This document shows positions 9,831 through 12,923 of a DNA stretch of 34,677 nt, in pieces. The stretch is from Gammaproteobacteria bacterium (lineage in GTDB: Bacteria; Pseudomonadota; Gammaproteobacteria; Xanthomonadales; SZUA-5): the NCBI GenBank assembly GCA_030430155.1, contig JAUIFV010000034.1, positions 1 to 34,677 of the forward strand, read 5' to 3'. Every line of letters starts with the position of its first letter. The stretch's first letter is position 1. The notes beneath the pieces were generated by a model. That model saw nothing but the letters and a program-made list of their open reading frames with translations, searched no databases and had not been told where the DNA came from. Position numbers and translations under genes: made by a program.

Positions 9831-11060
9831 ATGAGCACAGCGATAGACGCGCAGACGGCATCGGCAGCCGAACAAGCGGGCGCCCCCGGAGTCGCTCAAC
9901 CCGGCGAATTCATGCACTACTACACCAACCTGCTCACCCTGTTCGGGGATCGCCAGCCCTGTGCTCGCATCGAGCAGATGGCCAAGGCGGCGCAGGTCAA
10001 TCGCAGCGACGCTATGCTCGGCTTCTCGGCGCGACTGGCCGAACTCGCCGAGGACTTCGCTGCGCAGCGCCAGCGCACCGGCGAGCGCGCCAATACCCAG
10101 GCCAATCCGCTACTACACGGCTGGGAGCGATCGCCGCTGCCAGGCCTGGTTGAGACCCACGGCGGCGTCCTGGTGGCGATGTTCCACTATGCCGGCCATC
10201 GCCACGTGTTCGCTGATTTGGCCAGCATGAATCTCGACTTCATCGCGCCCGTCGCCAAACAGGCCTATTTCGAATGCAGCGAGCTTGCCACCGTCGCGCC
10301 GCTGGGCTTCGAGCAGGCCATGCGGCTGATCGAAGTCGAGGACCCCCGGGTCGGACGCAAACTGCTTAGCGGGCTCCGTCAGGGCCGGATTGGCTTGCTC
10401 TATGCCGACGGCAACATGGGTCCGGACGGTCATCTGGTGGACGAAGGCGGGGTGACGGTCGATTTCCTCGGCAAGTCGATACGGGTCAAAGCCGGCGTCG
10501 CCCGGCTGTCGATCAGCCTGGGTCTGCCGATCGTGCCGCTGATCATCCGCGAAGGGGCAGATGGCGATGGCCTGGATTTCGGGCCGACGCTGCTGCCGCC
10601 CGACAAGGCCACGCTCAACGATGTGAGCGAGGAAACCCGTGCGCAGCAGCGAATCATGCAGTCGCTGTATCAGCAGCTGGCGCAGGCGGTAGAGAGCCGA
10701 CCCGAGCGCTGGGAGTTTGCCTTCTGCTTTCATCGTTGGCTGGACCAGAACTCAGCCGAGGTGACCGAGTCGACGCCGCGCCTGCCGGTTTCCGAAGATC
10801 AGCCGCTGCGCCTGAACCCGCAGCGGGTCACCCAAATGCAGCGCGCCGATGGCGTGTATTGGATCCACGTCGGGCGCCAACGCGCCTATCGGCTGCCGAC
10901 CTGGGCGGCCGGTCTCTATCAGCGTGTAGACGGTACCCGATCGCAGTCCGGACTGGTTGCCGATCTGCATCGCGCGGGGGCCGATCCGGCGCAGGCCCGG
11001 CGTCTGATAGGCGGATTGCTGGACCTGCAACTGATTGATGGCCGCGCGGCTGTCGCTTGA
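9831..11060 (+). CDS. LpxL-type acyltransferase fused to a PqqD-like domain
   Basis: A 409-residue protein with two parts. Residues about 100-305 resemble the LpxL/HtrB lysophospholipid acyltransferase family: a His-rich putative active site HYAGHRHVFAD (119-129), the VTVDFLGKSIRVKAGVARLSISLGLPIVPLIIR block (208-240), and PERWEFAFCFHRW (291-303), which parallels the family's PEQYxWxHRR ending. The HX4D/E catalytic spacing is not clean: HVFAD is HX3D and HRHVFAD is HX5D. Residues about 330-405 resemble PqqD, the RiPP leader-binding fold (YRLPTWAAGLYQRVDGTRS, then ARRLIGGLLDLQLID). The start is ATG 9831 after AGGAGAGG; the longer frame upstream spans the promoter. It precedes a Cys/Gly-rich peptide gene by 91 bp. 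Likely role, inferred: acyl transfer to that peptide. Confidence 0.8.
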   Translation: MSTAIDAQTASAAEQAGAPGVAQPGEFMHYYTNLLTLFGDRQPCARIEQMAKAAQVNRSDAMLGFSARLAELAEDFAAQRQRTGERANTQANPLLHGWERSPLPGLVETHGGVLVAMFHYAGHRHVFADLASMNLDFIAPVAKQAYFECSELATVAPLGFEQAMRLIEVEDPRVGRKLLSGLRQGRIGLLYADGNMGPDGHLVDEGGVTVDFLGKSIRVKAGVARLSISLGLPIVPLIIREGADGDGLDFGPTLLPPDKATLNDVSEETRAQQRIMQSLYQQLAQAVESRPERWEFAFCFHRWLDQNSAEVTESTPRLPVSEDQPLRLNPQRVTQMQRADGVYWIHVGRQRAYRLPTWAAGLYQRVDGTRSQSGLVADLHRAGADPAQARRLIGGLLDLQLIDGRAAVA

Positions 11061-11099
11061 TTCAGATCGGTGGGCGGCGTCCGTCGCGCATTGACTACC

Positions 11100-11115
11100 A
11101 TCCCGTTGTCGGGAT
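11100..11115 (+). other. Short hairpin upstream of the peptide gene
   Basis: ATCCCG (11100-11105) and CGGGAT (11110-11115) form a perfect 6-bp stem with a four-base loop, between the acyltransferase stop and the peptide's ribosome binding site. It may stabilise or process the peptide mRNA. There is no T-tract, so it is not an obvious terminator. Confidence 0.35.
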
Positions 11116-11151
11116 CAACCGGGGCACGTGCCTCATTCAAGGAGCTAGACC

Positions 11152-11313
11152 ATGGAAAACCGTGATTTGATCGAAGAGATGTCCATCACTGCGCTGGAAC
11201 AGCGCGTCGAGTTCAGCTGCTGTGGCGGTGGTGGCGGTGGTGGCGGTGGCGGCGATGGTGGCGGCCCGGGCGATGGCGGCGGCGACAATCCGCCCCCCAA
11301 TGATCCGAACTGA
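11152..11313 (+). CDS. Candidate RiPP precursor: leader, Cys-Cys, poly-Gly core
   Basis: A 53-residue peptide. Residues 1-22 are a charged, amphipathic leader-like segment (MENRDLIEEMSITALEQRVE) of the LxxLEQRLE style seen in many RiPP leaders. Then come adjacent Cys23-Cys24, ten consecutive Gly (25-34), Asp, GGGPGDGGG and a DNPPPNDPN tail. The Gly run uses mixed GGC and GGT codons, so it is not a simple trinucleotide expansion. A strong AGGAG lies 8 nt before the ATG and a terminator follows, both expected for an abundantly made precursor. The gene sits between a PqqD-domain protein and an M50 protease. There is no signal peptide. The RiPP role is inferred from context and layout. The alternative is an unmodified Gly-rich small protein. 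Confidence 0.72.
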   Translation: MENRDLIEEMSITALEQRVEFSCCGGGGGGGGGGDGGGPGDGGGDNPPPNDPN

Positions 11314-11361
11314 TCGCCTTCCGACGCTGATTGATCCCTGCTGATCGATCAGACGGACGAC

Positions 11362-11397
11362 AGCGGCGGGCGACCTCGGGTTCGCCCGCCGCTCTTT
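11362..11397 (+). terminator. Rho-independent terminator after the peptide gene
   Basis: A perfect 12-bp GC-rich stem, AGCGGCGGGCGA (11362-11373) with its complement at 11382-11393, has an 8-base loop and is followed by CTTT. The T-tract is short, so read-through to the protease gene is likely. This would give more peptide mRNA than protease mRNA. Confidence 0.75.
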
Positions 11398-11579
11398 AGC
11401 CCGTGGTTTCATGAGTATTCGTTGCGAGGGCGTCGGAGAGCCGAAGTGGTGCGGTCCGCTTCACTGGAGGTCGATGAAGGCGTACTTGCACAGTACGTCG
11501 AACCGATAGGAGGGAGCAGACCGCGCCACAGCGCCTCTCCGGCGGCCGCAGTAGAAGACTTGTGAAATATGCGGGTTAG
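11397..11579. repeat. Palindromic repeat element, copy B
   Basis: A 183-bp relative of the element at 252-435. It has TTTCATGAG and GGAGAGCC in the left arm, CTCTCCGGCGG and TGAAATATGCGGG in the right arm, and the same inner hairpin CGTACT (11481-11486) / AGTACG (11492-11497). The arms are more diverged from each other than in copy A. It lies directly after the terminator and separates the peptide gene from the protease gene. Confidence 0.82.
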
Positions 11580-11639
11580 GCGCCAAAACTACAGTCGTAT
11601 CCGTCAATGGCCAGCTGATTGGCGGTGGAGGTCGCAAGC

Positions 11640-12923
11640 TTGAAACTCCCCTCGCCGGAACACAGCCCGCGCTATCAACTCAACCCGCGGCTGGTCGTCA
11701 CGCCGTTCGATGAATCATCGCTAGCGCAGCGCTGGCTGTACGAGCTGGCAGATCCGGCCGGGCGGATGCAGAGATTGGTGCTGCCCGAGCGGTTGCATCG
11801 GCTGCTGCAGCGCTTTACGGCGGCTGATGGAATGACCATCGAAGGCGCATTGGCAGAGGTTGAGGACCTGAGCGCCGAGGATTTGCAACCACTGCAAGAA
11901 CTGCTGCAACAGCAGTGCCTGCCCACGGCGCTGCTGATTCCGTTCGGCAGTGGTCAAAACGGACCGGTGAGTGCGCCGATTCAGGCCGCTCGACCGCACT
12001 ACATGAGCATGATGATCGAACTGCTGCGACCAGCGCTGGTGAACGTGCTGGCCCGCCCGCTGCGGCTGCTCTTCGCGCCACAGGCGATGGCGCTGGGCCT
12101 GATCCTGATTGGCTTGGCCTTCGGCGGATTGCTGTACAGCCTGAGCAGTCAGGGCAACTTTGGGCAGTTGCGTTCGGCCGACCTGCTGCTGATGGTTAGC
12201 TTGGGTGCGGTCGGCGTCATGCTGCACGAACTGGGTCACGCGGCGGCCGCGCATCGGGCCGGGGCGCGCAACGTCGGTATAGGCGTTGGTTGGTACGTAT
12301 GTTTTCCAGTGGCCTATGCCGATCTATCCGAAACCTGGCGCTACAGTCGCAGGCAGCGGGCCCTGATCGACGTAGCCGGCGTCTACATGCAGGGACTGTG
12401 GGTGTGCGTGTTGATGTGCGTATACCGTCAAACCGAGCATCCGGCATGGCTGCTTGCGGCATTCTCCAGCGTTGCGTCCATGCTCTGGAACTTGAACCCC
12501 TTTCTGCGTATGGACGGCTACTGGTTGGCCAGCGATCTGCTAGGGATTGCCAACCTACGGAGCTCGGCCACAAACGCTTTGGGTCGGCTGTGGGATGGCG
12601 TCAAGGGTCGGCCTTTGCGCGCGGCAGCCAGGCACCTGAGTGACCGCATGGCCGCCGTGCTGTTGCTCTACGCGCTGGTCTCGGCGTTGTTCCTGATTTG
12701 GTTGGTGACTGCGGCGGCGCTGCATTTTGGCGAAGCAGCGCTGCATCTACTGCCCGACTATGTGGCGCGACTATGGAACACCCGCTGGGCGGCGCTGAGC
12801 TGGGCTGATGCGATCGTCATCGTCGGCGGTTTCATCTGGCAACTGCTGCTGTTCATGGTGCTGGGCCGCTACCTGCAGCTGACTGCGCGCAGTTGGTTGC
12901 CCGCAATCCGCTTGCTGCGATGA
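11640..12923 (+). CDS. M50-family membrane zinc metalloprotease
   Basis: A 427-residue polytopic membrane protein of peptidase family M50 (site-2-protease type). The zinc motif HELGH (196-200) lies in a hydrophobic helix, and the third-ligand motif LNPFLRMDGYW (285-295, Asp292) is present, so it should be catalytic. At least six further hydrophobic segments are visible. Residues about 15-95 are soluble and read like a PqqD-type winged helix (RLVLPERLHRLLQRFTAADG, then LSAEDLQPLQELLQQQCL). I chose TTG 11640 because GGAGG lies 8 nt upstream; an in-frame TTG at 11619 has no such site. M50 enzymes of this layout occur in RiPP clusters as leader peptidases or exporters. Inferred role: maturation or release of the Cys/Gly peptide. 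Confidence 0.85.
   Translation: MKLPSPEHSPRYQLNPRLVVTPFDESSLAQRWLYELADPAGRMQRLVLPERLHRLLQRFTAADGMTIEGALAEVEDLSAEDLQPLQELLQQQCLPTALLIPFGSGQNGPVSAPIQAARPHYMSMMIELLRPALVNVLARPLRLLFAPQAMALGLILIGLAFGGLLYSLSSQGNFGQLRSADLLLMVSLGAVGVMLHELGHAAAAHRAGARNVGIGVGWYVCFPVAYADLSETWRYSRRQRALIDVAGVYMQGLWVCVLMCVYRQTEHPAWLLAAFSSVASMLWNLNPFLRMDGYWLASDLLGIANLRSSATNALGRLWDGVKGRPLRAAARHLSDRMAAVLLLYALVSALFLIWLVTAAALHFGEAALHLLPDYVARLWNTRWAALSWADAIVIVGGFIWQLLLFMVLGRYLQLTARSWLPAIRLLR

Follow-up and report, generated by a model that had tools for sequence, protein, structure and literature searches.

Three neighbouring plus-strand genes at positions 9831–12923 of the window (the whole 34,677-nt stretch of DNA analysed here) raise the question of whether a lipid A-type acyltransferase, a short Cys/Gly peptide and a membrane zinc protease can together form a pathway to a lipidated peptide. 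The first-pass annotation had read these genes as a modified-peptide (RiPP) cluster, and this reading is supported by the present analysis, in which homologous loci keep the trio and both enzymes carry RRE (RiPP recognition element) folds. We consider it probable that the trio is a minimal RiPP cluster whose product is a lipidated peptide: the LPLAT-fold enzyme would acylate the core and the M50 protease would remove the leader. The acylation itself, its donor and acceptor, the cleavage site, and any export and biological role of the peptide are predictions.

The precursor gene and its leader

All three ORFs lie where they had been placed (Table 1). For the protease the better start is probably the TTG at 11640, which has GGAGG upstream of it, and earlier starts at 11619 or 11625 are possible. 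The short peptide does contain two cysteines followed by exactly 10 glycines, arranged as a leader ending in ITALEQRVEF and then SCC-Gly10, and its start codon is preceded by a Shine-Dalgarno site (AAGGAGCTAGACC-ATG). Among 27 leader and early-core codons compared with the homologue of Dokdonella immobilis, 15 are identical, 9 differ synonymously and only 3 non-synonymously. Because of this codon pattern and the Shine-Dalgarno site, the precursor is a real gene and not a chance ORF.

Table 1. Positions of genes, domains and sites in and beside the cluster
Feature	Position	Strand	Basis
Ser/Thr protein kinase with TPRs, candidate regulator	6271..8961	-	PF00069, E 8e-44
ECF sigma factor, candidate regulator, divergent neighbour	9010..9597	-	PF07638, E 7e-46
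Acyltransferase-RRE fusion, 409 aa	9831..11060	+	PF03279; AF2 model pLDDT 81; LpxM/PatA and RRE fold matches
H119-YAGH-R124 (HX4R replacing LPLAT HX4D/E)	10185..10202	+	homologue alignment
D193 of conserved DGN/DGY motif, likely partner of H119	10407..10409	+	invariant in 8 compared homologues
C-terminal RRE of acyltransferase, residues 320-409	10788..11057	+	fold comparison; PqqD-type winged helix
Precursor peptide, 53 aa	11152..11313	+	L016 homologue at 9620-9757; mostly synonymous changes; Shine-Dalgarno site
Leader-like region MENRDLIEEMSITALEQRVEF	11152..11214	+	LExRxE(F/M/L) common to all precursors found
Cys24, invariant Cys of EFxxC, candidate acylation site	11221..11223	+	in all close-clade precursors compared
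11-bp G+C-rich inverted repeat then CTTT, possible partial terminator	11362..11393	+	sequence
M50 intramembrane metalloprotease with N-terminal RRE (probable start)	11640..12923	+	HELGH at 12225, NPFLRMDG at 12495
RRE-like N-terminal domain of M50 protein, residues 12-108	11658..11948	+	fold comparison

As in other RiPP precursors, the leader motif LExRxE is conserved and the cores diverge; the Gly-rich core is confined to the close clade, and in other clades the core contains Cys and is non-Gly. The 5.06-Mb genome has a single match to the DNA pattern for LExR(V/I/L)EF(S/G)xC, inside the precursor, and 274 genomes of the order have nine, with eight of the nine matches lying in precursor ORFs of the three genomes that hold a close-clade cluster. 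A match in genome G023 was set aside as chance, having no matching short ORF and neither an acyltransferase nor an M50 gene near it. Since the pattern was written from known members, these counts show its specificity and are no independent discovery, except for the seventh precursor of genome G113. None of the precursors scanned belongs to a named NCBIfam family, and their similarity to the azolemycin leader is weak (E 0.05–0.14, under the cut-off). Past the precursor, the region 11314–11440 folds at z -3.5; a simple terminator scan did not list the inverted repeat in it.

There is a negligible probability that the three genes adjoin by chance, the acyltransferase homologue being an ordinary one for lipid A, the Gly-rich ORF being spurious and the M50 gene having no relation to either. 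Although G+C-rich DNA can hold poly-Gly reading frames, the substitutions here are mostly synonymous, a Shine-Dalgarno site is present, the LExRxE(F/M/L) motif has no match in 145 kb of control DNA, and the trio is kept in many genomes; the homologous loci refute this explanation.

Two enzymes with RRE folds

The acyltransferase part scores 34.9 bits against the Pfam profile PF03279 (Lip_A_acyltrans; cut-off 22.3), which is also matched by its homologues. In the AF2 model, residues ~15–349 resemble LpxM (Z 22.2 over 252 residues) and PatA (Z 21.5), the AF2 models being built on only 8–9 sequences. The leader-binding domain that had been proposed to be fused to this enzyme is its C-terminus: structure prediction gave an RRE fold there, and comparisons in VIA matched ThcOx (Z 9.3), TigE (8.7), MibB (8.6), TbtB (8.4), the PbtF RRE with a leader fragment (Z 7.7) and TbiB1 (Z 7.5).

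At the expected catalytic site, the HX4D/E motif is replaced by HX4R here and in the compared homologues, with the exception of one locus with HX4W (L022); PatA aligns at this site as ALPHSGNW. This atypical motif could signal an altered or lost reaction. LpxM pairs H122 with D192 and PatA pairs H126 with E200 (PMC6286764, PMC9597891), VexE is an active acyl-ACP LPLAT despite HX4Y, with Tyr at the acid position, and LpxL/LpxM use an acyl-ACP donor (PMC9597891). Because VexE is active with HX4Y and LpxM uses the H122/D192 pair, loss of the HX4D/E acid is compatible with activity. The spacing between H119 and D193 is 74, the same as for PatA H126/E200, and both residues are kept across remote homologues.

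The loss of the HX4 acid can be read in another way, namely that the LPLAT-fold enzyme has lost its catalysis and serves as a scaffold, bringing the peptide to the membrane or the M50 protease, with an unmodified Cys/Gly-rich peptide, released by proteolysis, as the product. This is very unlikely in our judgement: it fits with the lack of a second modifying enzyme in the close clade and with the action of M50 proteases in or near membranes, but the invariance of H119 and D193 over remote homologues argues for kept catalysis, and acyl-supply genes are present in L025/L026.

The third gene had been described as a membrane zinc protease with a PqqD-like N-terminus, and both parts of this description hold. 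Its zinc-site residues, in HExxH and NPxxxxDG, are invariant in the homologues, and the model of residues 183–307 matches RseP (Z 9.3, VIA). The N-terminal domain matches RREs, with MccB at Z 9.1, ThcOx at Z 8.1 and the PbtF RRE at Z 7.7; these domain matches come from VIA, as a Foldseek search with the whole M50 model gave no match at E <= 0.001. The Pfam score for M50 is 21 bits, under the curated cut-off of 27.2, and the best NCBIfam matches, daptide_HExxH (82.9 bits, 2e-23; cut-off 300) and the epipeptide YydH/LiaK family (48.7 bits; curated cut-off 225), also do not reach their cut-offs. M50 proteases mature other RiPPs, such as epipeptides and pearlins (PMC10885120). Thus an RRE is found by fold on both maturation enzymes, and leader binding is predicted for both.

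Homologous loci and neighbouring genes

Neighbours of homologous acyltransferases were inspected, as had been suggested, and all eight non-truncated loci outside the window (L016, L017, L019, L020, L021, L022, L025 and L041) have a Cys-containing short peptide with the LExRxE leader and an M50 gene. Neither of the two outcomes that had been named as refuting the first-pass reading was obtained, since the homologues do have such neighbours and the acyltransferase C-terminus is predicted to have an RRE fold. In Dokdonella immobilis (L016) the gene order is as in the window, the leader is near identical, and the acyltransferase and M50 protein are 48–49% identical to those of the window. A third genome (L017) has seven LExR(I/L/V)EF(S/G)xC precursors, six on the contig and one elsewhere, and remote homologues still keep acyltransferase, M50 and LExRxE precursor. 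In genome G236 (L018) the M50 gene is kept, but a transposase fragment has apparently cut the acyltransferase short; no precursor was found there. Sampling of the class and phylum for further members added one genome only, and none came from the genus Dokdonella or the family of G113. For P0001 there was no plasmid match.

One remote cluster (L025/L026) has KS, ACP, SDR/KR (ketoreductase), MaoC dehydratase and PPTase genes beside the acyltransferase genes, which points to the use of acyl-ACP. The window cluster has neither an exporter gene nor acyl-supply genes, and both absences count against the lipidated-peptide reading. Chemistry around the LExRxE leader extends beyond lipidation, since remote clusters additionally hold radical SAM, arginase-family and cupin enzymes. 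Together with HX4R throughout the subfamily, these enzymes leave some room for a reaction of the LPLAT-fold enzyme other than long-chain fatty acylation, such as transfer of a short acyl, a hydroxyacyl or an aminoacyl group, or ring closure at the changed HX4R site; we hold this to be unlikely, as VexE with HX4Y actively transfers a fatty acyl from acyl-ACP and the KS/ACP/KR/MaoC/PPTase set beside one homologue fits a longer acyl chain.

In L016 an ECF homologue (48% identical) lies downstream of the M50 gene and is adjoined by a kinase homologue, and in L017 the regulators are LytS/LytTR two-component genes. The lipidated or otherwise processed peptide could be a signal to which such regulators respond, and not an antibiotic or surfactant, which would be compatible with the main explanation. 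Regulators adjoin the cluster in three close-clade loci and L017 has several paralogous precursors; nevertheless the kind of regulator varies from locus to locus and pairs of ECF and kinase genes are frequent in the order, and we give this role a limited chance.

A predicted route to a lipidated peptide and its relation to known systems

In the lipidated-peptide pathway, the motif I-x-x-LEQRVEF would be bound by the C-terminal RRE of the LPLAT-fold enzyme, which would then acylate the core with a fatty acid that probably comes from acyl-ACP, with H119 and D193 as the proposed base dyad. Because no nucleophile of the close clade is invariant except the EFxxC Cys, its thiol or the alpha-amine exposed beside it is the most likely acceptor, and an S-to-N acyl shift after cleavage is possible. 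The M50 protease would bind the same leader via its own N-terminal RRE and cut it off at the membrane, and the peptide set free would carry its lipid on Cys and have an acidic, Gly-rich tail. Lipidation alters what peptides do; if the pathway is true, an RRE-guided acyltransferase from the family of the lipid A enzymes would open a new way to genetically encoded lipopeptides, one that probably depends on acyl-ACP, and one enzyme, one peptide and one protease would be among the smallest possible pathways. The leader motif and the trio are a ready handle for genome mining, and the Cys-centred minimal clade would let the existence of a second bacterial way to acyl-cysteine peptides be tested directly.

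That no named RiPP class has this composition, as first annotated, holds for NCBIfam as of June 2026 and for the open-access papers that were searched, among which none matched a RiPP with an acyltransferase of LpxL or lipid A type or the RRE/M50/acyltransferase combination; a 2025 paper on peptide arginases makes no mention of M50, Lysobacter or lipid genes. As far as searched, described RiPP lipidation uses GNAT enzymes, and no LPLAT-type class was found among those described. We tentatively suggest, at somewhat under even probability, a distinct class in which an RRE-bearing LPLAT-fold enzyme puts an acyl-ACP fatty acid on a single N-proximal Cys and, with no part for Lgt/Lsp/Lnt, an RRE-bearing M50 protease then sets a lipoprotein-like peptide free.

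Selidamides (phaeornamide, kamptornamide) and nostolysamides are likewise RiPPs with a fatty acyl chain added by a cluster enzyme, as predicted here, and the arginase-family gene of remote clusters could make ornithine. Their GNAT-fold enzymes acylate Orn/Lys side chains (PMC9505594, PMC13060382), whereas the enzyme here combines an LpxM/PatA fold with an RRE. The core in the window lacks the Lys or Arg (Orn) acceptor of known selidamides, which leaves only Cys, Ser or the N-terminus to take the acyl group and counts against the lipidated-peptide reading. Lipolanthines, goadvionins and lipoavitides are N-terminally acylated, and some of their clusters have acyl-synthesis genes, but they are class III lanthipeptides with GNATs (PMC13060382); the trio has no lanthionine synthetase and no GNAT gene, its acyltransferase being of the PF03279/LpxM fold. 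LpxL/LpxM, PatA and VexE share with our enzyme the fold, the PF03279 match and a His with a separate acid. They acylate glycolipids or sugar nucleotides, LpxL/LpxM/VexE from acyl-ACP donors, and differ in having neither HX4R for HX4D/E nor a fused RRE. Epipeptides (EpeP/YydH) and daptides (HExxH) also have an M50-type intramembrane protease in a RiPP cluster, but the scores are far under the cut-offs, and the window cluster has an acyltransferase partner and no radical SAM gene. Bacterial lipoproteins (Lgt/Lsp/Lnt) would be analogous in carrying a fatty acid on an N-proximal Cys after proteolytic loss of the front part; in the present system, in contrast, there is no signal peptide, other enzymes would act, and an RRE would read the leader.

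Predicted folds of the two enzymes and putative catalytic site of the acyltransferase

The acyltransferase was modelled with AlphaFold2 from 9 sequences (pLDDT 81) and the M50 protease at pLDDT 82, both models being built on few sequences. In structure comparison, the main part of the acyltransferase model matched LpxM (Z 22.2, 252 residues aligned, 3.3 A) and PatA (Z 21.5), and residues ~320-409 resembled the RiPP recognition elements (RREs) of ThcOx, TigE, MibB, TbtB, MccB, PbtF and TbiB1 at Z 7-9, where values below ~8 may be non-specific. RREs of RiPP enzymes made up the majority of the top matches to this C-terminal region, alongside a small number of ribosomal oxygenases, winged-helix proteins unrelated to them. 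In the M50 model, residues 183-307 matched RseP (Z 9.3) and residues ~12-108 the RREs of MccB (Z 9.1), ThcOx (8.1) and PbtF (7.7). From the matches at ~320-409 and ~12-108 we therefore assign an RRE to both enzymes, and the inference of the first-pass annotation that two such domains flank the short peptide is borne out by both predicted models.

The HX4D/E motif reads HX4R (H119-R124) in the window acyltransferase and its homologues, HX4W in the remote homologue L022 and NHVGSYR in L041, and the window enzyme fails the plain motif test. The working pair of LpxM is H122/D192, and the His of PatA is paired with E200 (PMC6286764; PMC9597891); in VexE a Tyr replaces the acid, yet the protein is an active acyl-ACP transferase (PMC9597891). 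D193 (DGN motif) does not vary across the compared homologues; it follows H119 by 74 residues, just as the acid of PatA follows its His. Because of these pairs, the VexE exception and the invariant D193 at PatA spacing, we think that the acyltransferase is catalytically active.

Precursors of the close clade and the predicted acceptor residue

Since Dokdonella immobilis belongs to the same order as the window genome, the latter is placed in Lysobacterales. The D. immobilis locus (L016) encodes an acyltransferase, the precursor MNKNLIEEMSITELEQRVEFSCCGGGGGGDGDPSTGCPEFTYCDPQ and an M50 protease in the gene order of the window, and its enzymes are 48-49% identical to those of the window. Across 27 codons common to the two precursors, 15 are identical, 9 synonymous and 3 residue-changing; judged from sequence, the precursor is a translated peptide under selection. 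The inverted repeat behind the window precursor gene is possibly a partial terminator setting precursor versus protease expression. The third close-clade locus, L017, has an acyltransferase, an M50 protease and six LExR(I/L/V)EF(S/G)xC precursors; a seventh LEDRIEFGLCGGGG precursor from the same genome (G113) lies on another contig (L053), on which neither enzyme was found nearby. An ECF sigma factor and Ser/Thr kinase-TPR pair (48% and 36% identical, respectively) stands beside both the window and L016 clusters in differing orientation, and is a candidate regulator.

A DNA pattern for LExR(V/I/L)EF(S/G)xC gave nine matches in 274 genomes of the order, eight of them precursor ORFs, all from the three genomes whose close-clade cluster is intact (Fisher p 5e-6, for a pattern composed from already known members). 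Control DNA totalling 145 kb held no match to the LExRxE leader motif. Members of the acyltransferase subfamily are rare: among 398 genomes sampled from the order, 9 carry one, and a single further match came from outside the order.

After the leader, the EFxxC cysteine (Cys24 of the window precursor) is the only nucleophile invariant in the close clade; the window core has one Ser and neither Lys nor Arg, and in one L017 precursor Ser, Thr, Lys and Arg are all absent beyond the motif. Because this Cys is the only shared nucleophile, it or the adjacent N-terminus is the predicted clade-wide acceptor. An S-acyl Cys, once N-terminal, would shift its acyl group to nitrogen, so S- and N-acylation routes could both finish as N-acyl-Cys.

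Features of the window and of homologous loci
Feature	Location	Strand	Remarks
ECF sigma factor and Ser/Thr kinase-TPR pair	window 6271-9597	-	divergent, upstream of trio
Acyltransferase	window 9831-11060	+	409 residues; passes PF03279 Lip_A_acyltrans
Precursor	window 11152-11313	+	encodes MENRDLIEEMSITALEQRVEFSCCGGGGGGGGGGDGGGPGDGGGDNPPPNDPN; good Shine-Dalgarno in front
Inverted repeat	window 11362-11393		11 bp, perfect, G+C-rich, then CTTT; a short way 3' of precursor gene
M50 protease	window ~11640-12923	+	HELGH and NPFLRMDG motifs
ECF and kinase-TPR pair	L016 11412-14517	+	
Genes among L017 precursors	L017 9936-14010		TAP-like alpha/beta hydrolase; LytS-type histidine kinase with LytTR response regulator
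Ser/Thr/Lys/Arg-free L017 precursor	L017 14967-15119		
Seventh G113 precursor	L053 4449-4664	-	
Decayed locus	L018 7568-9673		
Radical SAM cluster	L019 2160-12332		
HX4W acyltransferase	L022 7008-8054		most of C-terminal RRE absent
Combined cluster	L025 461-14255 and L026 15711-18471		two EELEQRLEMSCTRCC precursors, acyltransferase, arginase-family protein, M50, exporter, KS, ACP, KR, MaoC, TauD, PPTase

Remote loci

Six remote loci (L019, L020, L021, L022, L025 and L041) each pair an acyltransferase homologue (20-25% identity where aligned) with an M50 protease and an LExRxE(M/L) precursor. The L025/L026 acyltransferase cluster contains or adjoins genes for a ketoacyl synthase, acyl carrier protein, SDR ketoreductase and MaoC dehydratase, and also for a TauD-type dioxygenase, phosphopantetheinyl transferase and HlyD/MacB-type exporter. 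LpxL, LpxM and VexE, of the same family as the acyltransferase, use acyl-ACP (PMC9597891); the gene set thus places an acyl supply next to an enzyme of an acyl-ACP-using family. The presence of arginase-family genes (PF00491) in L019 and L025, with the precedent of KgrD, a PF00491 enzyme converting Arg to Orn in enteropeptins (PMC12703449), suggests Arg-to-Orn conversion in these clades, and the combined L025/L026 cluster is a candidate lipo-ornithine RiPP.

L019, L020 and L021 carry LEDRLELADRCNGRC-type precursors with a TIGR04463-like radical SAM protein (scoring under NCBIfam cut-offs), cupin_8, arginase-family and M50 proteins and FtsX/MacB permeases. The L022 acyltransferase lies in a low-G+C stretch between high-G+C genes, with a radical SAM gene and two precursors alongside. 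In the decayed L018, an apparent IS3-type transposase fragment truncates the acyltransferase, the M50 gene is intact and no precursor was seen.

Relation to known lipidated peptides

From genes and predicted folds, we regard the trio as a variant form of RiPP cluster, the proposed lipidating enzyme of which is an LPLAT-fold RRE fusion. No NCBIfam model reached its cut-off for the precursor or the window acyltransferase. Selidamide, lipolanthine, daptide and epipeptide assignments were each rejected for the trio on the features tested. The lipidated RiPPs described in the open-access literature searched rely on GNAT enzymes (PMC13060382; PMC9505594), as in the selidamide and lipolanthine types, whereas the window encodes an LPLAT-fold RRE fusion instead; the M50 protease is a feature that the trio shares with epipeptides and pearlins, from which such proteases are already known (PMC10885120).
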